Below, piece after piece: positions 6,856 through 19,395 of a DNA stretch of 22,516 nucleotides; the first letter of the stretch is position 1; the number at the start of each line of letters is the position of its first letter. A program made the position numbers and the translations under genes. A model generated the notes under the pieces. The model was not told the origin of the DNA. It searched no databases and saw only the letters and a list, made by a program, of their open reading frames with translations. Source of the stretch: a virus; the IMG/VR virus record IMGVR_UViG_3300042890_002027, positions 1-22,516 of that record, one strand, 5' to 3'.

Positions 6856-6882
6856 GCTAAATTCTAAAAACTTTGGTATACT
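6854..6882 (+). promoter_or_regulatory. Putative promoter of tail chaperone / tape measure unit
   Basis: TTGCTA (6854-6859), 17 bases, then TGG-TATACT (6874-6882), an extended -10. It directly follows the major tail terminator and precedes AGGAGG (6895-6900) and ATG 6909. It shares TGGTATACTTAT with the site at 2917. Confidence 0.65.
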
Positions 6883-6908
6883 TATCCAGACAACAGGAGG
6901 TTAATTTA

Positions 6909-7271
6909 ATGGCAAGTCAAGTGTTTAAAACAGAAACGATTACGCTTATGTCTGGGCGGGAGATTGAACTCAAGCCACTGAACATTAAGGGTGTAAGAAA
7001 GTTTCAACAGAAGCTCAAAGAGTATAACGATGCCCTTGTAAAGGCTTCAGAATCTGATCAGGTTGAAGAGGATGCCTTCCTTGACAATTTTATCGACATG
7101 ACGCAGGTTTGCCTTGGAAGATTGGCTCCCGATCTCGCAGAGAGTAAGGAACTGATTGAAGAGGAACTGGATATTGAAACAATTTTCAAGATTTTGGAAG
7201 TTTGTGCCGGAATGAATTTCAATGATCCAAATTTGCAAACGGCGGCGATGTTGGCCGCTCAGAATCAGTAA
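6909..7271 (+). CDS. Tail assembly chaperone, short form (gpG-like)
   Basis: 120 residues from ATG 6909, with AGGAGG ending 8 bases upstream. A longer reading from TTG 6873 would start inside the promoter and is rejected. The sequence FKTETITLMSGREIELKPLNIKGVRKFQQKL is the typical opening of tail-assembly chaperones, which coat the hydrophobic tape measure during tube assembly. The rest is helical and acidic (EEDAFLDNFIDMTQVCLGRL, EEELDIETIFKILEVCAGM). The gene lies between major tail and tape measure genes, the fixed place for this pair. A slippery heptamer near its 3' end (7229-7235) should send some ribosomes into the next frame to make a longer fusion form. Confidence 0.85.
   Translation: MASQVFKTETITLMSGREIELKPLNIKGVRKFQQKLKEYNDALVKASESDQVEEDAFLDNFIDMTQVCLGRLAPDLAESKELIEEELDIETIFKILEVCAGMNFNDPNLQTAAMLAAQNQ
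7229..7258 (+). other. Programmed -1 frameshift site (slippery heptamer plus hairpin)
   Basis: A-AAT-TTG (7229-7235) has the X-XXY-YYZ form in the reading frame of the upstream chaperone. The -1 frame is open from just after a TGA at 7223-7225 and continues without stop to 7633. Six bases downstream, GCGGC (7242-7246) and GCCGC (7254-7258) form a 5-bp stem (6 with a G-T pair at 7241/7259) and a 7-base loop, a suitable stimulator. Slippage gives a 241-residue fusion (109 + 132). Confidence 0.8.
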
Positions 7272-7282
7272 AATGGGAGGAC

Positions 7283-7633
7283 ATGGATCTTCTAGGAATA
7301 GAGTCCAGAGTCATGACCATTGGAGCATGGTTAAACTATGAACAGTTGGAGGAAACCCTAACATTGTCAGAGTTGGTCGAGCTGGATATGAGTATAACTC
7401 GAAGAGATTGGAAGTTGCAGAGAATGATTGGCGCCTCTGCAGGAGCTGATCTTCCAGAAGATCCATATGGCGATGAGGAAAAAGAAGTGACATCATCAGA
7501 CGTGTTAGACCGAGCACTAGGCAAGCTTTCTGGTGTCGACGATATCTATAACGATATTGTTGATGTTAGAGGAATAGGCGCACAACAGCAGGGCTTCGGA
7601 ATCGGACTCGGTCTTGGGTATGAGGTGGAATAA
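7283..7633 (+). CDS. Tail assembly chaperone, T-like extension frame
   Basis: The frame is 116 residues from ATG 7283, but it is open upstream to 7226, and the real product is most likely the extension of the preceding gene by -1 frameshifting at 7229. The GGGAGG before ATG 7283 ends only 2 bases from it, too close for good initiation, which also argues for frameshift expression. The sequence begins in the fusion as ANGGDVGRSESVKWEDMDLLG and continues with ESRVMTIGAWLNYEQLEETLTLSELVELDMSI, a helical T-domain thought to bind the tape measure and recruit tube subunits. It ends with a Gly-rich tail (QQQGFGIGLGLGYEVE). The stop overlaps the tape measure start as TAATG. Confidence 0.75.
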   Translation: MDLLGIESRVMTIGAWLNYEQLEETLTLSELVELDMSITRRDWKLQRMIGASAGADLPEDPYGDEEKEVTSSDVLDRALGKLSGVDDIYNDIVDVRGIGAQQQGFGIGLGLGYEVE

Positions 7634-10600
7634 TGGCTTCTATTGTTGATCTTGAATTTAGGGCTAGTGCTAATTTTTCTGATTTAATTTCTCAGGTAAA
7701 TGCAGCTAACCAGCAAATTCAAAGACTCAGCATGTCTATGCAGAGGCTTAATGTTGAGTCTTTCAACTCGGCAATGGCCTCATTCTCAAGATCGCTGGCG
7801 CAAAGTGGTCAATTTACTACGCAATCGCTAGTTATTGATGATGGTGTTAAAAAGTTTGGCAAGGCCCTTGGACAAGGAAACCTTAGTCTAAGAGAAAGCA
7901 CAACTGCCATGAGGGAGTTTATTAGGACTCGTGACGGGCAAGTTAGGCAATTAGCTAGGCAACAGGTTCAACTTGAAAGATCTGTCTGGACTTCAACAGG
8001 AAGATCTGCAAGTGGTCAGAGCCGAGGGATCCTTGCCACACCAACTGGACTACCTGATTCGGTTGCAACTAACACAGCCATTGCAACAAAAGAAATGCAG
8101 ATTTTTCACAAAGTTATTAATGAAACTTCTAAGGGCCTTATTAACTGGGGTAAGAATACCCAGTGGGCTGGTAGACAACTCATGGTCGGTCTTTCTATAC
8201 CGCTCTCCATATTTGGAACAACCGCTGCAAAAACTTTCATGGACTTTGACAAAGAACTTACTAGACTTTCTCGTGTTTATGGTGCGTCTATTACTTCTTC
8301 TGGAACACAGGCCCTTGATTCAATTAAAAGCCAGGTTAAAGAACTTTCTACAGAGCTTTCAAAGGCCTTGGGAATACCTGCGGCACAAACAGCGGGACTA
8401 GCTGCTGATCTAGCAGCCACAGGCCTTGAGGGAGAAAAACTCATTGGGGCCATTAAACAAACAAGCATCCTTGCCACGCTGGGAGAAATTGATAGACAGC
8501 AAGCCATGAAAACAACCTTATCTCTTCAAAGTGTTTTCAGATCTGATACAAAACAATTAACTAAAGATATTAACTTTTTGAATGCTGTTGAAAACCAAAC
8601 AAGCGCAAGCATCGATGACCTTACTACTGCAATTCCTAAAGCCGGTCCAGTTGTTAGAGGACTTGGGGGTGACGTAAAAGATCTAGCAACGATGCTTGTA
8701 GCAATGAAGGAGGGTGGAATCCCCGCCGGAGAAGCCGCTAACGCAATCAAATCATCTCTTTCTGCTCTTATCAACCCAACCAAAGAAGTTTCAAAATACA
8801 TGAAAACTTTTGGAATTGACCTTACTGAAATTGTTGATAAAAATGCAGGAAAACTTATGCCGACTCTTAATGAGTTCCAGGGAAAGTTAAATGCGCTCGA
8901 CGACCTTTCAAGGCAGCGCGTGCTTGAAAAACTTTTTGGTAAAATGCAGGTTGGTAGAATTACAGCTTTGTTCAATAATTTGAATCAAGCGGGTAGTCAA
9001 TCTGTACAGGTGATGGAACTCGCGGGAAAATCAGCAGCAGACCTAGCAGCATTAACAGAGCAAGAACTTGCAAGAGCTGCAAACTCTGTTTCTGGACAAT
9101 TTAAGAGAGCAGCTGAAAACTTAAAATCCAATCTTTTACCAATCGGTGAAGAGTTTCTTAAGCTTGGAACTAAAATATTTGGCGCTCTTGGAACGATGCT
9201 TGAAAAATTCAACAACCTTCCTTCCGGATTTAAACAATTTATTTTAGGTCTTACTACCCTAGTTGCAATTGTTGGACCAGTCATTATGCTTGTGGGTGTG
9301 TTTGCTAACTTCTTCGGTTATCTTGTTAAGGCTGGAGTTCTTCTTTCTGCGTTTAAGAAGGGTGGCCTTTCAGCTTTTAAATATGTTACTGCCGAAGAGC
9401 AGGCAGCTAAATTGGCGGGAGACCAACTAACTAAAACTTTTTATGATCAAGTAACAGCAACTAATACCTTTAAAAATGCTGTTGCAAACCTAGCTCTTCA
9501 GTTTAAAGAGTTAGCTGATAATGCCACTGCTGCTTCAGTAGCCACAGGAAATGCTTCACAATCACCAGCAGGTAGAGCCGCTTCTGAAAGGGTAGCAATT
9601 CCTTCCGCCATTTCGGTAGGGTCATCTACTCAGGTAGCGCAAGAACCAGGTAGTGCAGGGGCGCCTACCAGTGCTCAACTGGAACAAGCCTACAGGAGTA
9701 TGAGAGATGGCGGCGTTGCTGGAAAATACTTACTTTCATCAGCTGACCCTAGTATTGTTTCGACCAGCGGCAAATCCAAAGGCAGAACCTTTGCCCGGGG
9801 AGCTGAATATGATAGAGCCCACCTACTTAGTAAAACTGATCCATTCTGGTACGGTAGACCTCTGAGTGCTTTAGGAATAATGCCAAGCCCTAAGTGGCAA
9901 AACACAATGCAGAGGGATTTATCTGACGAAGGCAAAGGATTTGGTTTTTCTACAACTTTGGATGAAAGTGCCCCTGATGCAGAAAAAAGAAAAAAAGCAG
10001 CCATTGATGCTGGAAAGAAAAAAGACCTTGCTGAAGCTGAAGTTAAGAAAGCTAGTAAAGTAGCTGGTGCAACTAAGGAGGGAACTGATGCAGCCAAAGA
10101 GTTGGCTAAAGCTCAAAGAAGACTCATAACCGCAACAGCAAATTATACAGAAGCACTTTTTCAGGCTGGTTCATATAAAGGTAGTGAAATAGTTAAATCA
10201 CAAGCTACCATGTTTGGGCAGGCTAGGTATTTATATGAGCAGGGTGCAGGACCTAATGGGCAAGCAGCTGTAGATGCCGCTGCCAAACAATTAAATAATC
10301 CAGATGTGGCAGCAAGACAAAAGTGGTTCGCTAGCAAAGACGTAAATATTGGTGGGGCTGAAGACCAAGCTTTTGTAAAAAGAGTTCAGGACAATGCCAA
10401 AATAAGAGCGGAACGTAAGCTTAAAGCAGAGCTGGATGCAGAAACTCAGGCTGCTAGAGCAGCTGATCCAGATTATAGAAGGCTTGGTAAAGAAACTGCA
10501 GAATATAAATATAGATTAGCTAAATGGGAAACGGATGAGTTTAATAAATCACTAGTTAGGCTTGAACAAGGATTACAAAGAAGGGCAGCGGCCGCCGGAT

Positions 10601-13600
10601 ATGATATTAGAACTCCACTTTATGGAACCGGTGCGGCTAGCGGCACGGGTCATTTAGGCCCATCATCAGTATCTACACCACAAGATGCCGCAGCATCAAA
10701 AGCTTTGAACGATGCAAAAATTGCTCATGCACGAAAACTTAATGAACTTACTGCATCATTATCTACTCAGCAAGCCGCGGGAGCAGATCTAAGTGAAGCC
10801 CAGATTATTGCCGCAGGAAAACTTGCAAAGTTAACTGGTCAAAGGGAACTTGCAGAACTAAATTACACACAAGCGCTTGATGCATCTGCAAAGTTAGCTA
10901 CAAAGAGTGCCACAAACCCTAAGCGCATAGCAGCTGAACAAGCAGTTATCGCTGCTGAAGCAGCTTTAGTCACAGCTATAAGGACTGAAATTGCTGCCTT
11001 GGGAGGACTTACGACAGAAACTATAATTGAAACTGAACAGTACAGGATGAGTAATCCTAATTCCCCTCAAACAACTACTACTGGAGATGTAGATGTTGAT
11101 GGAGGTGGAGATACAGTTTTGTTAGATCCCGACGGGGAAGAAGGACCAGGTAAAAAAGCAGGTAGACGTCTGCCGTCCATGACTAAAGTAGGAATGGGAG
11201 CCATGGCGGCTGGTTCAGTTGCGTCGCTTGTAGGTCCAAAGCAGGGGGCTTTAGCAAACCTGGCTACAGGGGCCATGAGCTTTGGAGTAACAACAATGAT
11301 GGTTGGGCAAATGATCCCAGCAGAAAGTATGAAAAGATTGGGCGAGGGAATTACTAAAATGACCAAGCTCGGTGGAGTTACTGGAGCAACTGGTAAAGCT
11401 ATGGCTGCATTCTCATCAACAGTTAAAGCAGGAATGTTAGCTCTTCTAGGACCAATCGGGGCCGTAATAGCAATAGTGGCAGGTTTAGGCGCTACAGTCT
11501 GGTATGTAAATAGGCGTACTCAAGATGCTGCTAAAACAACCCAATCATTCATGACTGTATCTAGCGATATGGCCACATTGTTTAATCAAAAACTTAATGG
11601 AATGAAAGCAAATCTTTCTGGACTTTCTGAAAATATTGATGAAGCTCGTAAAAGGTATGAAGAGCTTAAAAAAGCTATTGATGCAATGGATAGCAAAAGC
11701 CCGATCAAAAAACTTATTGAAGATCTTAAAAATGAAGCTGATCCAGAAAGAAGCATCCCTGCTAAACTAACATCAATGTACTCCTCGCTTGTTCTGCAAG
11801 GCCTAGACCCACAAAAAGCAAAGGACGCTATCCAAGTTGTCCTAGATGAAGCTGGTCAAGGCAAGTATAAAATTGTTGTTAATGCTGAAATTGATGAATT
11901 AAATCTTAAGGGACCAGAAGGTAGAAAAAAACTTATTCAATCAGCATTCGATAGAGCTCTTGCAGGGGCTATTGGAACAGATAAATATAACAATGCCATG
12001 GATCAATTTAAAATTAATGGAGTAAAAAATGCAGATAAGCCTAGAGAAGAAGAAGACAAAAGCTTCTGGGACACCGTTGTTGATGCCCTCAACGTACCTC
12101 AAGATGCTGCAAGTTATAACACTCGAAGAGATGACACAATTAGGTCTGATTCTGGACAACTAGCACTAGAAGTTAGTAGAATGGGTGACCCGGCCGTGAA
12201 GGGGGCCGCGGATCAATTAAGTAACATGCTTGGTCAAATTAGTGCAGTTAACCCAGCAGGATTTAGTAAATTTGTAGAGGACTTAAAGACTAGCACAACT
12301 CTTCAAGAAGGTTTTTGGATGGACGAAAGGTTTAGAAAACAATTTATAGAAGATCTTGGAGTTGTTGGAACTAAATATGAAGAACTTATTATAAAAGAAA
12401 ACAACCTCACGGTTGCGGCACAGTTAGCTTTCCTTGCACAATCAGGAGTCTCCGATGCAATGGCTCAAAATGCTTATAATGCAGACAAGGCCGCGGGGAG
12501 CTTTGGAACCGTTACCAGTGCAATAGAAGCTATGACTGTTGCGGCCCAGGTAAACAAGCAACTTGCACTTGACGTACAAGCCGCCACTCCAAGAGTCAAG
12601 GAATCTGCAACTTCGGCCGGTAGAAAAAATGCAGTTGCTTCTGGGTACGATGCCCAAAAGAAAGCAATTCAGGGTAAAATCGATGTAATTAAAAAAGAAA
12701 TAGAAGCAATTAACAAAAAGCTTGAGGCTGAAAAGAAAGCCTTTGAATTTGAAAGAAAAATGCGTGCCTCACAAATTTCTTATAGAGAAGCTTTAGCGGC
12801 AGGGCAACTTGGAGAAGCAGCATTAATCAAGAACCAAATGAATAATGACATGCTTGACAAGCAAAAGGAAGACGAAACTGCTGCAAAAATTGATCCCAAG
12901 CAGGCTCAAATAGATAAACTTCAAGCTCAACTTGATGCAATTGATAAGATGAAGGAAAAGTCTTCTGACGCAACCGTAAGCACTGAGGGCGATGTTAAAA
13001 ATGCAGATAATCTTGAAAAAGCTTGGACTGCTGTTACTGATGGAATTGCTAGTGGCTCAATTAAGTCTGCCAATGATATAAAGAATAATTTAAGTCCAGC
13101 CCTTTATGACGCAATTAAAAAGGGTGGATATGGAATTGATGAGTTTTATGGTAAAGCTAGAAAAACTATTAAAGATTCTATTCAGGGTAGCATTAATGAT
13201 TTAGATGAAACGCAGAAGGCAGTTTGGAAAGCCTATAGTAAAGGCTCAAAAGATCTAGCGGACCAACTTAGAACTGCCAGGATTATGTCTTTTGTCGCTG
13301 GTAGAGGGGGAAGTGTTGAAGAAGCAGTAAAACTTAATCAACAAGGAAAACTTAATGTTACTACAAATAAGCAAGGAGTAATAACCGATGTCTATGCTAA
13401 GGGAGACATACCAGCAACTATAGCAAAGCCTGGTACAAAATCAGCCCTGTACCCAAATGGAATACAGCCCACCGCAGGAAATGCTGATAATACAGCACTT
13501 GCAAAATCAATTGGTGGAGAATTTGAAAGGGCACTTGATAAATATGCTGCTGATGGTAGTTCTTTAAGGGTTAGGAGTTGGGACGGAAAATCAGGTGGAG

Positions 13601-16600
13601 GTGGCGCAAACTACTATAACTATTATGGCTCTGGCATGGGTGGATCAAATTCATATTCAGGAATGGGTGGATCAAATTCATATTCTGATATGGGTGGAGG
13701 AGCTGATGATTATGATTCTGGTATGGGTGGATCAAATTCATATTCTGGTTCAGGGGCAAGCGCATATAATGGAAGATCGTCATATCTTTTCGGGCCACAA
13801 AAATCTTCAGCACTTTATGATGCAACCGCAGACCAGCAGGCTAGCGATAAAAAGGCTTCTACCCCTGCAAGTTCTTCAGCTTCATCTAGTTCTTCAGCTT
13901 CATCTAGTTCCTCTGGAAACCAAAACTCTAGTTACTTAGAAGGTTCTACAGATTCATCTGCAGGGAGCGAACAAGCGATTCAAGGACCATTTGCAGCTAG
14001 AGACGTTAAGGGCCCATTTGACAGAGTAAAAATGAAGAGTTGGGGAAACTATCCGTTTTATAATAATCGGGAGGGTAGAGCTTACGGTGGGCGCCACGCA
14101 GGCCTTGACTACCCAGCTGAGGTTGGAAGCAATGTATTTACAACCCGTGGTGGAAAGGTTGTCATGTCTCGTTACATGGCAGGTACGCCGGGATATGGAA
14201 ACTTTGTAGTTGTTGAAGATGATAAACTAAAGTATGTTTATGCACACCTAAGCACTAGAAGCGTTAAAGAAGGTCAATCCGTTGTTGAAGGACAGCAAAT
14301 AGGTAAATCTGGTAGCAGCGGTCTTAGAGATTCTGCTCCACACCTGCACTTTGAGGTAAGAGATAAAGATTCTAGTTTAGGTAACAAAAACTGGAAATCT
14401 ACCTATGACCCAAGAAATTACCTGCATACCGGTGGAAACGTTAACAAACTTTCTACTATAGACAAATCATTAAAGCGTGACGAAGTTCCTGCAGTTCTTC
14501 AATCTGGTGAATATGTAATTCAACGTAAGGCTGTTAGTCGGTATGGAGAAGGATTCATGCATATGATTAACAATGGTGATCTTTCTGATAAAGAAGTTCC
14601 TAAGTTCCATACCGGGGGAATGGTTCCCCATGCCCATGCAGGTGACGACAATTCCTCTTCAATATCTTATAACCAAAAAACTGGTAAGCGTAAGATAACT
14701 CGCAGGAAGAAGAGAAGACCTGAGCCTACCCAAGCTAAACCATATCTTTCTGTACAAGCAGCGCAATATGGGGGTTTAAAACAATTACAGCTACAAACAA
14801 AACAAGATTATACAAGTTCTAAATTTAAGAAATCTTTAGAAGGAAAATCTATTGAAGAAAGAAGAAGTCATCTAGCTTATTGGAGAGCTAAAAAAGCGGG
14901 ACCAGAAACCTTTGCGGCATATAATCACGCAAGACAAGTTGGAAATTGGAATATAGGCAAAAAAGAACTAGCATTACTTGATAACGCAGGAATAAGCCGT
15001 ACGGCAACTAGTATAACTTCTGCCGTAAAAATTAGAAATGAAAAAAATAGAGCACTGGCAACAAGTTCTTATATAGCACCTGAGTTATCTTTTTTACCTA
15101 AAACATACTTGTCTGCAAAAAAACCTGAAAACACACAATCTTTAGATCAAAATTATACTGAAGATTTTCATAGAAGATCTGGCTTTATGGGTCTTCTTCA
15201 TAAAGCTGCTAAAATTGGATTCACTCCGTATGAACAAGGAGTTTCTAGGGTGTTATCTACTGCTTTGCTATCTATAAACACAGGAAAAGGGCTTGGTGGA
15301 CTTAATCCAAGGGAGGCCTGGAATAATTCTAAGTATGTTTCACCTGGTCAAGCACTTGCAGGTGGAATTGATGCACTTAATAACAAGTGGACCCGTAGAG
15401 ATAGAGACCCTAGCACAATAACTCCAGAAGAAGAACTTAGAAGTGCAATAGCAAATAGAAGCAAAATAACAAGTTTCTCTGGTGGCGGTGCTTTTGGAAA
15501 AATTGCTAACTTAAGTTCTGGTGTTTGGGACGGAGCATTTAGACTGCTTGACCCAATGAGTTATGTACCAATTATGTGGGCTTTTAAGGGAGCTAAAGCA
15601 GGTTTAACTGCATTACCCAATGCTATGCGTACCTTTAATGCGCTTGATAAATTTAAGCCACCAATTGTTGAAGGAATGCCATCTTCAGTTAATGCTTCTA
15701 AAAATGCAAGATCAGCAACAAGTAATTTAGATAGAAGAACTAATGCTGCACTTGCTAAAGAAAGAAAGGCAGCAAGAACTGCAGCAGCCCAAGAAGCCAG
15801 AGGGCAAAAAACTGCAGCAACTTCTGGTGGGGCCGCAGGAGAAAAACAATATGGTGTAGCACACCTTAGACAGATTTTGTCTGGTGGTGGCGCAAAAGAA
15901 AAACAATACGGTGTTGCAAGTCTTAGAAGAATTCTATCTGACGACAGAGGCGAAGCAGACATTAATCCAATGAATTGGTTAAGGCGTGGGCCTAAGTTAA
16001 GTGAAAAAGATGCTGCTAGAACTGAAGAAGTTTCAGCACTTCTAAGAGCAAGCAATAAGGAAGCTGGGTCTGACGCATTTTCAGGAATGCCAGTTACAGA
16101 ACTCGGAGAATTGACTGGTGCTCTGGGCGGACGCAGTTCTGCTATTCCAGGGGTTAACGGAACGTATAGAGATCCCTTTGGACAATTGCATGTTGTGAAG
16201 GGACATACTGATGCTGCCTCTGCTTATGCTGAAGCAAGGGGGTCCCAGCTAACCACAGATCTGTTTGGACTAAAAACACCAGATCAAAAGGTTATAAAGT
16301 TTAGGCACCCAATTACTGGTGATAGGATGTTTGGAGTTCGCTCCACGTTTGATGAAAAATTTGCAGAACCCACCGGAAAATTTACTGATGATGAATTTTA
16401 CAGACAAGCAGTTGCTTCTGTTCTTAGAAGAGACAAAGATCTGCAAGCTGAAAATCTATATGGAAATATTGTAGCCGACCAGGGACAAGCGTTTGTTGCA
16501 AGCAAGGCAAGCCAACCAAGGACTGTTGGGGGGCTTAGACTTCCGGTTGGAGATCAAGTTAGAGCAAACTTCTTAATGGAAAAAGCAGGGGCTAGATCGT

Positions 16601-19395
16601 GGTTTGCAGAAACAACTGCAAGTATTGCAAAGAGGGCTTCGAAGTCTGAGTATTCTGCTGGATTCCAAAAAGCCATAGATGATGCACTAGCAAACTTTGA
16701 TGGTGCAATGGCTAACCTAGGAAAACTTTCACCAGAAGAAGCAGCAATGTATAACAGCTTAAAGGACGACCTTGTTCAACTTTCTAAAACTGATTGGGCT
16801 GAGGTTCAGGCCCATCATGCACAAATTGTTCCAAAGGTTGCTAGGCCTAAAACTGATGCCGCTATAAAGAAGGCGGCAGAAGCTAAGGCAGCTCGTAAGA
16901 TTGAAGCACAGAAATCTATTGATAGTGGTATGCCAGAGTGGTTGCTTTCAATGAGAGATACTCTTTCAGCTAGAATGGATGCCATGAAGGGCATGGCTGG
17001 TGATGATTCTGGTGCAGCTTCTATCGACATGCTAACGGGTGGACTTGGAAAATTGGTTAGTTCAATTGGAAGAAGAATTCCTAGACGGGGTATTGAAAGC
17101 GCTTTGGATAGAGGCGTTATGGGCAATGACTTTATGGACGAAATTTCAAAAGTTGTCCAAGCAGAAGAGCTTGCTCCTAAACTTATAAATGGAAGCTTCC
17201 AGCGTCCAGTATTATCTGATATGGAAAGTCAAGTTGGATCAAGTTCTCTTTCTAAACTTAAAACAATTCGTAAGCGATCTTCGCTAGGTGATAAAATTTC
17301 TTCCATGTTTGATTCTAATAGTTCTACTGATATGATTAGAATTACCTCTGGTTCTGATGAGGGTCAGTTGATGACAATTAAAGAATGGGAAAACATGTAT
17401 TATAGTCTTCCTGAGGAGGCAAGGGGCTATCTGCCAGAAATTGCAACAGTTAAAACTGACGTAGCCACTCGAACCAAGGGCGTAACTGTTGGCGGCATGG
17501 AACCTGCGGACAGAGCTGTTAATGCTACTGGAGAATTTTTAATTAGGCCAGCCGACGTAGAGGCCTGGATGTACGCGGGAAACTTTGATAGAACCATTCG
17601 TCCAGTAAGATCATCAGCTAGATCTAAAAATAGTGTTTCTAACAATATAATGTCTATCGAACAAGATTTTCAAGGATCGGGGCTGGCAACTGCTTTCACT
17701 AGAAGGATGGACGATATCTATCCTAGAATTGGTGTTGACAGAAATACTGTTGAAACTGCTGACGCAGGTACCAGTGTTTGGGGTAAGCTTGGATTTGATC
17801 TTGATAGGTATGATAATGCAGCCAGTCGAATGAATCGAGTAAATAGCTCGTCAAGTCCACAATGGCTAGATAACATGGAGATGTATGGATTGGATGCAGA
17901 ATATCCTGATCTCTATCAAGCAATTCAAGCATTTAAAGATGGAAGAAATCCAGGCTTTTCTATTCAAGATATTATGAGGAACCCGGAATCAAGTACAATA
18001 TTCAGGGGCTCCGGATGGTATGGAGAAAAACTTTATCCAAAGGCTGAACCTAAGAAGAGTTTGATAGAAAGAACCCTTGAACAAAGAATTAAGAATAAGC
18101 GTGCAAAGGAAATAGCATCAACAACGTTTAGCGAAAGATATGATCAAATGGCCCGTATTGCACGGGGGGAAGAAAAATTACCTAACCCATCATTAGTTGA
18201 AAGAATGCTAAGTGGTTATCAAGCATTAAAAGCTAGAATGCCTAAGATGGGAGATGACTCTGGAGCAGCTTCCATCGATATGCTAACTCTAGGACTTGGA
18301 AGACTTATTCCTAAAAATAGAATGGAGTTGGCAGAAGAGGCCCTGCAAAAAAAGATAGCTGATGAAAATTATATAGAAAACTATAAAAGCTCTCTCATGG
18401 GTTATGAGGGGCCTTCATCTCCATCAAGGATCCCCTCACCAGAAGAATTACTTTCAACGATAAACAACAATGTTCCTGGATCTGCAATGCAAGAAATTTA
18501 CAAAAAACTTGGATATGGGTCGATGAACATGCTTGATTCCGGTTCGTATAACAGATTGACAAAAACTGATTTCGGGAAAAATAGATTAACGCCAGCTTAT
18601 CATGGAGTACCAGTTATAAATTCTAAGCCAGAAGCTTTCAATTGGCTACAGGAACTTGTTAGAGGCGAAACTAGCTCTCCAATATCAACAAAATTTGAAG
18701 GTGCGGCAAATAATGCACGTTATAGAGGAGCCGCTCCATATTTTAGTACAGATATGAGATGGGCAGACCTTTATGCACAAGGTAAGAATTTACAAGCAGG
18801 AGGCCTAAACGAAACTGGACCAACACTAGAGACTTTCATTGCTCCAGGAGCAAAAGAAATAGACCAGAGTGCATTTTTTAGTATGTTAAAAAATGCATAT
18901 CCAGAACTTAAAGGTGTTCCAAATAACATTCTTAGATCTAAAATGTCTGAATTAGCAGCCGAGTTTGGTTATGATATTCTTAGAACTGATCATTCTCGCG
19001 GATTTTTAACAGCGCTAAACAAGGGTTCCCTACTGGTTAATAAAGAACGACTTCCCCGCAACCCTAATAACATACCAGGACTGCGTTCGGGCGGCACTAT
19101 CAATAATGACAATACCCTTGCCAATCTTCACCAAGGAGAAATGGTTCTCACCCAACCATTAACACAAAAGCTTAATGATGGTATCAATGCTTTGAGTTAT
19201 ATGCTGGCTAGACCAAATAATTCTATGTCTTCTGTTTCTTCTGGTCAACCGGCCCAACAAGTTGCATCAGCACCCGTATCATACTATAATCTTACTGTAC
19301 AACCTTCTCCGGGAATGGACGAAGACGCACTGGCTAATAGAGTTGTAAGAAAGCTTAAGGACCACGAAAGAAGAGTTGGGATGGCGAGAAGATAA
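7633..19395 (+). CDS. Giant tape measure protein with M23 peptidase and enzyme-like cargo
   Basis: 3920 residues, about two to four times the usual size. Start ATG 7633 overlaps the preceding stop and has GAGGTG 6 bases upstream. Order by residue: 1-150 helical; about 200-450 TP901-1-like core (MDFDKELTRLSRVYG, GIPAAQTAGLAADLAATG, GGIPAGEAANAIKSSLS, LEKLFGKMQVGRITAL); 533-575 hydrophobic; 645-1175 an unrecognised polar insert; 1183-1293 hydrophobic helices (LLGPIGAVIAIVAGLGATVW); 1675-1770 coiled coil; 1995-2120 Gly/Ser repeats; 2152-2264 M23 peptidase; 2265-2330 HTGG...GEYVI motif; 2337-3815 cargo block with kinase-, GNAT- and ART-like regions; 3818-3920 canonical end (GGTI...GEMVLTQPL, then EDALANRVVRKLKDHE). 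It sets tail length and is ejected into the host on infection. The tape function is secure; the cargo functions are inferred. Confidence 0.93.
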   Translation: MASIVDLEFRASANFSDLISQVNAANQQIQRLSMSMQRLNVESFNSAMASFSRSLAQSGQFTTQSLVIDDGVKKFGKALGQGNLSLRESTTAMREFIRTRDGQVRQLARQQVQLERSVWTSTGRSASGQSRGILATPTGLPDSVATNTAIATKEMQIFHKVINETSKGLINWGKNTQWAGRQLMVGLSIPLSIFGTTAAKTFMDFDKELTRLSRVYGASITSSGTQALDSIKSQVKELSTELSKALGIPAAQTAGLAADLAATGLEGEKLIGAIKQTSILATLGEIDRQQAMKTTLSLQSVFRSDTKQLTKDINFLNAVENQTSASIDDLTTAIPKAGPVVRGLGGDVKDLATMLVAMKEGGIPAGEAANAIKSSLSALINPTKEVSKYMKTFGIDLTEIVDKNAGKLMPTLNEFQGKLNALDDLSRQRVLEKLFGKMQVGRITALFNNLNQAGSQSVQVMELAGKSAADLAALTEQELARAANSVSGQFKRAAENLKSNLLPIGEEFLKLGTKIFGALGTMLEKFNNLPSGFKQFILGLTTLVAIVGPVIMLVGVFANFFGYLVKAGVLLSAFKKGGLSAFKYVTAEEQAAKLAGDQLTKTFYDQVTATNTFKNAVANLALQFKELADNATAASVATGNASQSPAGRAASERVAIPSAISVGSSTQVAQEPGSAGAPTSAQLEQAYRSMRDGGVAGKYLLSSADPSIVSTSGKSKGRTFARGAEYDRAHLLSKTDPFWYGRPLSALGIMPSPKWQNTMQRDLSDEGKGFGFSTTLDESAPDAEKRKKAAIDAGKKKDLAEAEVKKASKVAGATKEGTDAAKELAKAQRRLITATANYTEALFQAGSYKGSEIVKSQATMFGQARYLYEQGAGPNGQAAVDAAAKQLNNPDVAARQKWFASKDVNIGGAEDQAFVKRVQDNAKIRAERKLKAELDAETQAARAADPDYRRLGKETAEYKYRLAKWETDEFNKSLVRLEQGLQRRAAAAGYDIRTPLYGTGAASGTGHLGPSSVSTPQDAAASKALNDAKIAHARKLNELTASLSTQQAAGADLSEAQIIAAGKLAKLTGQRELAELNYTQALDASAKLATKSATNPKRIAAEQAVIAAEAALVTAIRTEIAALGGLTTETIIETEQYRMSNPNSPQTTTTGDVDVDGGGDTVLLDPDGEEGPGKKAGRRLPSMTKVGMGAMAAGSVASLVGPKQGALANLATGAMSFGVTTMMVGQMIPAESMKRLGEGITKMTKLGGVTGATGKAMAAFSSTVKAGMLALLGPIGAVIAIVAGLGATVWYVNRRTQDAAKTTQSFMTVSSDMATLFNQKLNGMKANLSGLSENIDEARKRYEELKKAIDAMDSKSPIKKLIEDLKNEADPERSIPAKLTSMYSSLVLQGLDPQKAKDAIQVVLDEAGQGKYKIVVNAEIDELNLKGPEGRKKLIQSAFDRALAGAIGTDKYNNAMDQFKINGVKNADKPREEEDKSFWDTVVDALNVPQDAASYNTRRDDTIRSDSGQLALEVSRMGDPAVKGAADQLSNMLGQISAVNPAGFSKFVEDLKTSTTLQEGFWMDERFRKQFIEDLGVVGTKYEELIIKENNLTVAAQLAFLAQSGVSDAMAQNAYNADKAAGSFGTVTSAIEAMTVAAQVNKQLALDVQAATPRVKESATSAGRKNAVASGYDAQKKAIQGKIDVIKKEIEAINKKLEAEKKAFEFERKMRASQISYREALAAGQLGEAALIKNQMNNDMLDKQKEDETAAKIDPKQAQIDKLQAQLDAIDKMKEKSSDATVSTEGDVKNADNLEKAWTAVTDGIASGSIKSANDIKNNLSPALYDAIKKGGYGIDEFYGKARKTIKDSIQGSINDLDETQKAVWKAYSKGSKDLADQLRTARIMSFVAGRGGSVEEAVKLNQQGKLNVTTNKQGVITDVYAKGDIPATIAKPGTKSALYPNGIQPTAGNADNTALAKSIGGEFERALDKYAADGSSLRVRSWDGKSGGGGANYYNYYGSGMGGSNSYSGMGGSNSYSDMGGGADDYDSGMGGSNSYSGSGASAYNGRSSYLFGPQKSSALYDATADQQASDKKASTPASSSASSSSSASSSSSGNQNSSYLEGSTDSSAGSEQAIQGPFAARDVKGPFDRVKMKSWGNYPFYNNREGRAYGGRHAGLDYPAEVGSNVFTTRGGKVVMSRYMAGTPGYGNFVVVEDDKLKYVYAHLSTRSVKEGQSVVEGQQIGKSGSSGLRDSAPHLHFEVRDKDSSLGNKNWKSTYDPRNYLHTGGNVNKLSTIDKSLKRDEVPAVLQSGEYVIQRKAVSRYGEGFMHMINNGDLSDKEVPKFHTGGMVPHAHAGDDNSSSISYNQKTGKRKITRRKKRRPEPTQAKPYLSVQAAQYGGLKQLQLQTKQDYTSSKFKKSLEGKSIEERRSHLAYWRAKKAGPETFAAYNHARQVGNWNIGKKELALLDNAGISRTATSITSAVKIRNEKNRALATSSYIAPELSFLPKTYLSAKKPENTQSLDQNYTEDFHRRSGFMGLLHKAAKIGFTPYEQGVSRVLSTALLSINTGKGLGGLNPREAWNNSKYVSPGQALAGGIDALNNKWTRRDRDPSTITPEEELRSAIANRSKITSFSGGGAFGKIANLSSGVWDGAFRLLDPMSYVPIMWAFKGAKAGLTALPNAMRTFNALDKFKPPIVEGMPSSVNASKNARSATSNLDRRTNAALAKERKAARTAAAQEARGQKTAATSGGAAGEKQYGVAHLRQILSGGGAKEKQYGVASLRRILSDDRGEADINPMNWLRRGPKLSEKDAARTEEVSALLRASNKEAGSDAFSGMPVTELGELTGALGGRSSAIPGVNGTYRDPFGQLHVVKGHTDAASAYAEARGSQLTTDLFGLKTPDQKVIKFRHPITGDRMFGVRSTFDEKFAEPTGKFTDDEFYRQAVASVLRRDKDLQAENLYGNIVADQGQAFVASKASQPRTVGGLRLPVGDQVRANFLMEKAGARSWFAETTASIAKRASKSEYSAGFQKAIDDALANFDGAMANLGKLSPEEAAMYNSLKDDLVQLSKTDWAEVQAHHAQIVPKVARPKTDAAIKKAAEAKAARKIEAQKSIDSGMPEWLLSMRDTLSARMDAMKGMAGDDSGAASIDMLTGGLGKLVSSIGRRIPRRGIESALDRGVMGNDFMDEISKVVQAEELAPKLINGSFQRPVLSDMESQVGSSSLSKLKTIRKRSSLGDKISSMFDSNSSTDMIRITSGSDEGQLMTIKEWENMYYSLPEEARGYLPEIATVKTDVATRTKGVTVGGMEPADRAVNATGEFLIRPADVEAWMYAGNFDRTIRPVRSSARSKNSVSNNIMSIEQDFQGSGLATAFTRRMDDIYPRIGVDRNTVETADAGTSVWGKLGFDLDRYDNAASRMNRVNSSSSPQWLDNMEMYGLDAEYPDLYQAIQAFKDGRNPGFSIQDIMRNPESSTIFRGSGWYGEKLYPKAEPKKSLIERTLEQRIKNKRAKEIASTTFSERYDQMARIARGEEKLPNPSLVERMLSGYQALKARMPKMGDDSGAASIDMLTLGLGRLIPKNRMELAEEALQKKIADENYIENYKSSLMGYEGPSSPSRIPSPEELLSTINNNVPGSAMQEIYKKLGYGSMNMLDSGSYNRLTKTDFGKNRLTPAYHGVPVINSKPEAFNWLQELVRGETSSPISTKFEGAANNARYRGAAPYFSTDMRWADLYAQGKNLQAGGLNETGPTLETFIAPGAKEIDQSAFFSMLKNAYPELKGVPNNILRSKMSELAAEFGYDILRTDHSRGFLTALNKGSLLVNKERLPRNPNNIPGLRSGGTINNDNTLANLHQGEMVLTQPLTQKLNDGINALSYMLARPNNSMSSVSSGQPAQQVASAPVSYYNLTVQPSPGMDEDALANRVVRKLKDHERRVGMARR
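8230..8982 (+). other. Tape measure core domain (TP901-1-like)
   Basis: Residues about 200-450 of the tape measure. The order F-MDFDKELTRLSRVYG, GIPAAQTAGLAADLAATG, EAVENQTSAS-like helix, KAGPVVRGLGGDVKDLATM, GGIPAGEAANAIKSSLSALI and KLFGKMQVGRITALFNNL is that of the PhageMin_Tail family found in most tape measures. Confidence 0.85.
13636..13757 (+). repeat. 27-base Gly/Ser/Tyr-coding repeats
   Basis: Copies of ATGGGTGGATCAAATTCATA start at 13636, 13663 and 13723, with a diverged copy at 13690. Spacing is 27, 27 and 33 bases, so the frame is kept. They encode MGGSNSYSG-type units in the flexible stretch before the peptidase domain. Confidence 0.85.
13870..13911 (+). repeat. 18-base serine-coding tandem repeat
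   Basis: AGTTCTTCAGCTTCATCT occurs twice in tandem (13870-13887, 13888-13905), giving a Ser/Ala linker just upstream of the peptidase domain. Confidence 0.8.
14086..14424 (+). other. M23 (LytM-like) peptidase domain of the tape measure
   Basis: Residues about 2152-2264. H2155 and D2159 (HAGLD), H2205 (YAHLS), H2237 and H2239 (HLHFEV) are all present, i.e. the three expected zinc ligands and the two extra catalytic histidines of M23 peptidases. The order GGRHAGLDY, GNFVVVEDDKLKYVYAHLS, GQQIGKSGSSG, APHLHFEV is canonical. Such domains cut peptidoglycan cross-bridges, here presumably as the tail tip opens the cell wall during DNA entry. Confidence 0.92.
14425..14629 (+). other. First HTGG / GEYVI tape-measure motif
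   Basis: Residues about 2265-2332: HTGGNVNKL, DEVPAVLQSGEYVIQRKAVSRYG, then a second HTGG. This 'GG...VPA-x-L-x-x-GE-x-V-I' pattern is usually near the C-terminus of tape measures. A second, shorter version (RSGGTI, ANLHQGEMVLTQPL) lies at about 19087-19160, so this copy marks the edge of the intervening block. Confidence 0.65.
15841..15954 (+). repeat. 57-base tandem duplication in the tape measure
   Basis: Two 19-codon units, 15841-15897 and 15898-15954, encode EKQYGVAHLRQILSGGGAK and EKQYGVASLRRILSDDRGE. The DNA copies differ at many third positions, so the duplication is not recent. Confidence 0.85.
16144..16521 (+). other. Kinase-fold-like region of the tape measure cargo
   Basis: Residues about 2838-2963. 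NGTYRDPFGQLHVVK2856 followed by AYAE2867ARGSQLTTDLFGL looks like the N-lobe of the HipA/PI-kinase-like domains in phage and plasmid polyproteins (Gly turn, 'G-x-x-x-V-V-K', helix Glu). ENLYGNIVADQGQAFVAS could match the catalytic 'N-x-x-G...' stretch, but the following metal-binding Asp is absent (Ala/Ser), so it may be inactive. Moderate to low certainty. Confidence 0.4.
16942..17110 (+). repeat. Linker repeat copy 1 (GDDSGAASIDMLT)
   Basis: Residues 3104 to about 3159: LLS..., ARM, then GDDSGAASIDMLT (3123-3135), GLGKL and IPRRGIESA. It repeats at 18205, identical over 13 residues. Confidence 0.85.
17479..17817 (+). other. GNAT acetyltransferase-like region of the tape measure cargo
   Basis: Residues about 3283-3395. 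After strands (EFLIRPADVEAWMYA, VSNNIMSIEQDF) comes Q3347GSGLATAFTRRMDDIY, matching the GNAT acetyl-CoA loop 'Q/R-x-x-G-x-G/A' and its helix. Then IGVDRNTVETADAGTSVW3383GKLGFDLD matches the 'A...G...W-x-x-x-GF' end of a family of GNAT-like domains in phage proteins. Acceptor substrate unknown. Confidence 0.6.
18205..18340 (+). repeat. Linker repeat copy 2 (GDDSGAASIDMLT)
   Basis: Residues 3525 to about 3569: MLSGYQALKARM, GDDSGAASIDMLT (3540-3552), GLGRLIPKNRMELAEEAL. It aligns with the copy at 16942 including the ARM before it and the GLG-K/R-L after it. Confidence 0.85.
18586..19059 (+). other. ADP-ribosyltransferase-like region of the tape measure cargo
   Basis: Residues about 3652-3809. 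AYH3657GVP, then RGAAPY3703FSTDMRWADLYAQG, then FGYDILRT near the end follow the order of phage polyvalent-type ADP-ribosyltransferase domains ('Y-H-G-T', 'G-x-Y-F-S/T-x-x-x-x-x-A-x-x-Y-A', 'A-x-x-x-G-Y-D-x-I'). I cannot place the final catalytic Glu, so activity is uncertain. Confidence 0.45.

Follow-up and report, generated by a model that had tools for sequence, protein, structure and literature searches.

The 22,516-base virus record analyzed here (the window, which is this whole stretch) raises the question of what a giant tape measure protein (TMP) carries between two motifs in its C-terminal part, and whether this cargo could be delivered to the host at infection. The head and tail genes of the record are ordered much as in Streptomyces phage Gilson, and a single unbroken open reading frame at positions 7633-19395 encodes a TMP of 3920 residues (this frame and the features of it given below are on the plus strand). 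The protein was placed among siphophage tape measures by its position among the tail genes, similar to that in Gilson, and by matches to Pfam PhageMin_Tail (PF10145, residues 238-436, positions 8344-8940, E 6.6e-28) and to PHROG tape-measure families, with E values down to 1.4e-147. In tblastn searches its N-terminus matched 585 phage records, and the 20 matches listed (30-34% identity) were nearly all to annotated tape measures of Streptomyces phages. A scan of genome contigs with the same N-terminus gave no relative and hence no link to a host. Two adjoining frames at positions 6873-7633 occupy the place where Gilson has its tail assembly chaperones. The giant TMP is unlikely to be an assembly artefact because a second contig, L001 (IMGVR_UViG_3300042562_000844), shows the identical architecture, encoding the same TMP from about residue 178, where that contig starts.

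On its left the cargo slot is bordered by a first HTGG/GEYVI region (residues 2265-2331, positions 14425-14625), directly preceded by an M23 peptidase domain (residues 2154-2247, positions 14092-14373; PF01551, E 7.9e-23). A motif HMM trained on 24 clear copies, with the window's own copy outside the training set, matched the TMP at residues 2281-2317 with 29.7 bits, and this match ends 1603 residues from the C-terminus. The common, canonical C-terminus begins at residue 3813 (positions 19069-19392) and contains a second motif (GGTINNDNTLANLHQGEMVL from residue 3820; GGTINND lies at position 19090). It is 99.1% identical to that of L001 over 108 residues, and the C-terminal motif of the Gilson TMP matches residues 3814-3851 (38 residues, 52.6% identity, E 1.5e-6). 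About 1480 residues of cargo lie between these borders. An earlier, sequence-only reading of this DNA had proposed that about 4.4 kb of enzyme-like cargo was spliced into the TMP between the first HTGG/GEYVI region and the canonical C-terminus. The borders at residues 2265-2331 and 3813 agree with that distance, and the splicing itself is borne out by the empty, one-domain and longer slots of relatives and by a cassette that differs in L001, both described below. Upstream of the M23 domain, which that reading had not mentioned, a Gly/Ser-rich part of the TMP contains short tandem repeats (27 bases at positions 13636-13698 and 18 bases at 13870-13910).

An alignment of four TMP N-termini yielded at least 590 confirmed matches, and the best 80 (L018-L097), selected by likeness of the TMP N-terminus, were taken for comparison. 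A TMP frame was found in 79 of these 80 loci (none in L051 by the pattern used); 56 TMPs, of 1179-3868 residues, were complete at the 3' end, and the 23 incomplete ones were excluded from the length counts. The sample contains near-duplicates, with identical TMPs in L086 and L091 and equal lengths in L018/L019 and L059/L060. For each TMP the motif copy that scored best within the C-terminal half was used, with a threshold of 10 bits. The distance from the end of the motif to the C-terminus was 57-81 residues in 16 of the 56 complete TMPs, where the slot is empty, 280-315 residues in ten, where it usually holds one known domain, and 424, 721, 794, 861, 958, 975, 1121 and 1431 residues in the remaining eight. 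The other 22 had no copy of at least 10 bits in the C-terminal half, so that slot occupancy is not assignable there; L034, counted among them, has a copy of 9.2 bits, and L033 has a further copy of 21.6 bits at residues 1324-1359. The same distance is 1603 residues in the window, 1751 in L001 and 406 in Gilson (15 bits). The slot thus occurs with empty, single and longer occupancy among relatives, which makes it a general insertion slot with the window as an extreme case. The sequence-only reading had assumed that the motif normally sits near the end of tape measures; this holds for part of the relatives, namely the 16 TMPs with an empty slot. Relatives lacking such a block, for which it had proposed to search, do exist, so that the second outcome it had named as refuting, a block in all close relatives with no recognisable enzyme folds, did not occur.

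The occupants of the slot are varied. Among the ten slots of 280-315 residues, matches over the cut-off were to NlpC/P60 in three, M23 in four and OmpA in one; of the last two, one had CHAP/NlpC below the cut-off and the other nothing significant. The long slots hold NlpC/P60 in L020, CHAP and LysM in L097 and a phage lysozyme in L040, and no Pfam match was found at E<=1 in those of L053, L066, L084, L095 and L096. The slot of L079, whose TMP is incomplete, contains OmpA and a sub-threshold ABC1/APH kinase. This second kinase-like stretch (HGDMHPGNLLL ... FDWG, at about residues 3120-3160) is present besides the mid-tape kinase of the same protein, and its matches, ABC1 at E 0.003 in one search and at 0.0011 alongside APH in another, fall short of the Pfam cut-offs. 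HEXXH-like metallopeptidase stretches were seen by eye in the slots of L020, L084 and L097 (HELRH, HETMH and HELIH). The slot of L084 also has a GNAT-like stretch by eye, matched by neither the strict nor the loose GNAT expression used below, and the mid-tape of L097 has the look of an R-S-E type ADP-ribosyltransferase (ART), with no match to the ART expression.

Comparison with L001 revealed that the end of the cargo is exchangeable. Up to window position 14710 the two are 92.7-93.0% identical in DNA; identity in the cargo is 88.5-91.9%, and the 3448 bases that begin at position 19069 reach 98.96%. The 392 bases at positions 14711-15102 are represented by 32 bases in L001, with the frame kept. 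The last part of the cargo, 857 bases at positions 18212-19068, has no blastn match in L001, where 1691 dissimilar bases (L001 positions 9568-11258) replace it in frame, a difference of 278 codons. The terminal module was recently replaced between near-identical phages. Viral scans with other parts of the TMP returned only the L001 contig or nothing, and one returned the near-identical contigs L003, L005 and L008, all of which end before the cargo block. A 13-residue stretch, GDDSGAASIDMLT, occurs twice in the window, once after the kinase (positions 16999-17037) and once within the exchanged cassette, close to its left end (18250-18288), with no exact copy in L001; judging from the sequence, this duplication is possibly a mark of recombination.

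SopF of Salmonella is an ADP-ribosylating enzyme. The module found in L001 in place of the cassette resembles DUF3626 weakly (E 0.012-0.025). A search confined to the record gave E 1.2e-4, which did not reach the family cut-off, and in it none of 14 control genomes was matched. DUF3626 is a domain named in the effector SopF in the accessible part of the source (PMC6682159). If this likeness holds, it may be speculated that one ART-like module was swapped for another.

Within the cargo, the domain at residues 2789-3118 (positions 15997-16986) is probably a kinase. Kinases typically have a set of K, D, N and DxG residues with the spacing D-x4-N and D-x-G, and the predicted catalytic set here is K2856, E2867, D2936, N2941 and D2949-x-G2951. 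Besides L001, 24 of the 80 loci selected above from at least 590 have a TMP with a homologue of residues 2781-3120 or so (blastp E 5e-10 to 9e-87). All 24 homologues lie mid-tape, starting at residues 729-1343, and in 9 of the 17 TMPs examined the kinase is flanked by PVVLTPGEAVI and GEKGPE-FVP motifs. In an alignment of 25 TMP sequences, excluding the short kinase fragment of L039, K76, D156, N161, D169 and G171 are invariant in 25/25 and E87 is kept in 90% or more; K76, E87, D156, N161, D169 and G171 correspond to K2856, E2867, D2936, N2941, D2949 and G2951 of the TMP.

An AlphaFold2 model built from these 25 sequences was confident (pLDDT 85.9, pTM 0.83) and has a helical C-terminal part, so that structure prediction did not end in coiled coil or disorder only, the outcome that the sequence-only reading had named as counting against it. 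In a Foldseek search of PDB no match fell under E 0.001 (best 0.017, TM 0.28), and the 50 rows listed were kinases or macrolide phosphotransferases. VIA-align, run on Foldseek's 1000 highest-ranked chains, placed CtkA at the top (Z 11.8, 206 residues aligned, rmsd 4.7), followed by PI4KII (10.4), HipA (8.8) and HipT (8.7), then Vps34 and PI3K, with row 50 at 7.4. CtkA, PI4KII and HipA have the fold and the K, D, N, DxG set in common with the cargo kinase, but only 11-16% identity in the structural alignments, and the HipA_C profile found no match at E<=10 in any of 11 records, with the control matched in 5 of 14 genomes. Viral predicted structures gave five matches at E<=0.001: a PI3/4-kinase, two entries labelled ADP-ribosyltransferase, another labelled portal protein, and a fifth that carries no name. 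By sequence, all 25 members went without a match to a Pfam kinase profile at E<=1; the window member matched no family at all, and the best scattered match was Acyl-CoA_dh_M (E 8e-5, 1 of 25 members). PDB sequence searches of the cargo gave nothing better than E 0.018, to a leucine-rich repeat protein. In tblastn searches of 50,697 GenBank phage records, from which records very near the window are possibly absent, the window kinase had no match at E<=10, and in the same 50,697 records the kinases of L041, L038 and L053 had none at E<=0.01. The modeled fold and the catalytic residues support membership of the protein-kinase-like superfamily (HipA/CtkA/PI4K type), and phosphotransfer is the predicted activity.

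Two further enzyme-like stretches lie downstream. The GNAT-like core (residues 3290-3395, positions 17500-17817, with its motif at residues 3340-3388) reads MSIEQDFQGSGLATAF ... VWGKLGF, which fits by eye the GNAT motifs A and B, QGxGLA ... WxKxGF. The ART-like module (positions 18565-19068, with the pattern at residues 3656-3714) reads YHG ... YFSTDMRWADLYAQG and likewise fits by eye. Regular expressions for both were composed after the sequences had been inspected. The strict GNAT expression matched only the window and L001 in 791,402 residues, with no match in 20 shuffled sets, and the loose one again matched only these two, with 0.35 matches expected per shuffled set. The ART expression matched five places, four in cargo slots (window, L066, L080 and L096) and the fifth in a small antisense frame; as chance alone would give 0.9 matches in each shuffled set, and 18 blocks out of 5000 matched after shuffling, it argues weakly for an ART. 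It gave no match in the stretches of L053, L040, L079 and L097 that look ART-like by eye. Five ART-like stretches were 15-25% identical with three invariant columns, and we do not claim an ART family from them.

Profile searches with the same regions were negative. Acetyltransf_1 was matched in 0 of 11 records (control 14 of 14) and no other Pfam or NCBIfam profile matched the GNAT-like region; for the ART, PF18760 was matched in 0 of 11 records (control 2 of 14), and sequence searches of PDB gave nothing usable for either. An AlphaFold2 model of the GNAT-like and ART-like parts, made from two sequences only, had a pLDDT of 40.5, too low to be informative. Against the phage records, tblastn gave one match for the GNAT-like region (E 2) and three for the ART-like region (E 0.9-8); L014, a small gene by a Cro-like gene in a Paracoccus phage, is among these matches and had E 0.001 in a small local set. 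From their motifs, we regard the GNAT and ART assignments as possible to probable. Thus, of the kinase-, GNAT- and ART-like regions originally proposed, the first now stands on fold and catalytic residues and the other two stay at the level of motifs, with no profile match.

The leader region (residues 2496-2720, positions 15118-15792) precedes the kinase. Its residues 2530-2591 resemble phrog_10618, a 1722-position family of unknown function that was absent from the earlier reading (E 3e-4); a one-record search gave E 6.6e-7, but 1 of 14 control genomes also matched. A weak likeness of the leader region to the structural protein L013, from an uncultivated podovirus, had E 4e-4 when a small local set was searched and 0.6 when the search covered all phage records. 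Three further PHROG matches in the block were weaker (E 0.0086, 0.11 and 0.18), all to families of unknown function. A hydrophobic leader was also considered, but the signal for it in the window was weak (peak 0.95) and the idea was abandoned. A 57-base tandem duplication with copies 75% identical is found left of the kinase module (positions 15823-15936), mostly within a stretch without a blastn match in L001. Searched as five pieces, the cargo block matched no Pfam family, and its single NCBIfam match was trivial (E 0.051). The window, compared by megablast with the 50,697 phage records, gave nothing usable for the cargo, and tblastn of the whole block against phage records gave no match at E<=0.01.

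Selection was estimated between the window and L001, and every dN/dS value was below 1. The kinase (0.12, 49 changes) and the GNAT-like core (0.11, 7 changes, against 0.19 for the GNAT region taken more widely) are more constrained than the middle of the tape (0.42) and the linkers, with 0.47 in the interval between kinase and GNAT, 0.46 directly after the GNAT core and 0.53 further on. Values were 0.38 in the leader region, 0.37 around the first motif, 0.30 in M23 (6 changes) and 0.025 at the C-terminus. The N-terminal tape is as constrained (0.08) as the kinase, which counts against the explanation preferred below.

TMPs of long-tailed phages are thought to exit the tail into the envelope at infection. 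We lean slightly towards a model in which this TMP, through an exchangeable slot holding a leader, a kinase, a probable GNAT and an ART-like-looking terminal module, delivers host-modifying enzymes. The TMP would leave the tail at infection, with its C-terminal part entering both envelope and cytoplasm. The kinase and the other modules would modify host proteins (or lipids) ahead of phage gene expression; swapping of the last module is what one would expect from an arms race in which host targets or defences are at stake. Since ATP, acetyl-CoA and NAD are cytoplasmic, catalysis would take place inside a cell, either newly infected or producing. Delivery at infection is what we infer from TMP biology and from phage P23-45, whose virion RNA polymerase is fused to the TMP and was placed by its authors at the TMP entry pore, according to the accessible part of that paper (PMC10770324). 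Against delivery, a folded kinase must pass the narrow tail tube or unfold there.

The producing cell is a rather unlikely place of action. The TMP is a late structural protein, and in the 24 relatives other than L001 the kinase lies mid-tape instead of in the C-terminal slot, which leaves room for a role in structure or assembly; the modules might act late, for example the kinase on tail or host proteins during assembly, and be in the virion as passengers only. However, the peptidoglycan-active domains, wall hydrolases, in the slots of relatives favour entry over such action, and a cassette swap beside nearly unchanged structural genes fits a host-facing role better. It is unlikely that the domains are pseudo-enzymes that fill the tail lumen or tip structurally, without catalysis, even if the GNAT-like and ART-like parts have no profile match and a pLDDT of 40.5 and the kinase family occurs inside the tape too: all 25 aligned sequences keep the catalytic K, D, N and DxG, dN/dS is 0.12 in the kinase against 0.42 in the mid-tape, and the slot is empty in 16 of 56 relatives, so there is no general structural need for it to be filled. 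The domains could, finally, act on wall or membrane, for example as a lipid kinase, to open a channel through the envelope, and not as cytoplasmic effectors. The M23 domain adjoining the block, the NlpC/P60 or M23 domains over the cut-off in 7 of the 10 one-domain slots, and PI4KII and PI3K/Vps34 among the top structural matches would suit such a device, which nevertheless seems improbable as the kinase requires ATP, located inside the cell, and the best structural match is CtkA, a Helicobacter kinase, not a lipid kinase.

The preferred model, delivery of host-modifying enzymes through the slot, has partial counterparts. As far as the accessible text goes, P23-45 likewise has a giant TMP with a fused enzyme, but that enzyme is one N-terminal RNA polymerase, whereas here several modules, a kinase among them, occupy a C-terminal slot, the last being exchangeable (PMC10770324). 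The polyvalent proteins of Iyer et al. 2017 (PMC5512222), in the part of that paper available, also combine kinase, GNAT and ART types in one modular, variable polypeptide thought to be co-delivered with DNA; here the M23 domain and the kinase are the parts established, and delivery is a prediction. Polyvalent proteins are described there as fused to MuF, portal and other virion proteins, as against the TMP here, and no word beginning with 'tape' occurs in the text. Their kinases are said in the same accessible part to lack the C-terminal subdomain, whereas the window kinase model has a helical C-terminal part. The MuF-fused VIP2-like ART of Microbacterium phages, in the accessible part of its source (PMC7302621), is likewise a host-modifying enzyme on a virion structural protein. 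The Streptomyces phage Gilson TMP (NC_048742) is similar in its related N-terminus, gene order and succession of GE-V motif (15 bits), cargo and the same C-terminal motif; unlike the window's, it has 2100 residues and a cargo of M23 and, by eye, a lysozyme-like part, with no kinase profile match. Among the papers listed on tape measure proteins (by title and abstract opening, with few subscription papers and no bioRxiv preprints covered), none reports kinase, GNAT or ART cargo in a tape measure.

The insertion is real, and its generality goes beyond what the sequence-only reading had stated. The kinase is good at the level of the predicted fold, the GNAT and ART not yet, and delivery would follow by reasoning from what is known of TMPs. 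A wider proposal, to which we give a little less than an even chance, is that in a large uncultivated siphophage-type group the TMP is a polyvalent effector carrier: GE-V motifs would bracket mid-tape and C-terminal bays, recombination would exchange kinase, peptidase, ART-like and GNAT-like modules in these bays, every phage would thereby have a host-modifying set of its own that enters before the DNA, and the kinase (lipid or protein) would belong to a family that tblastn did not find in GenBank phage records. In the accessible parts of the sources cited above, the injected phage enzymes described are mostly carried by head proteins, and the known case on a tape measure is one fused polymerase. 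If our model is true, an exchangeable effector slot in the TMP would give long-tailed phages a second way of delivering enzymes, and a more general one, and could help explain the differences in TMP length among relatives. The space between the two GE-V motifs would then be a place to look for anti-host and anti-defence enzymes, and a slot-bearing TMP could serve as a natural scaffold for protein delivery.
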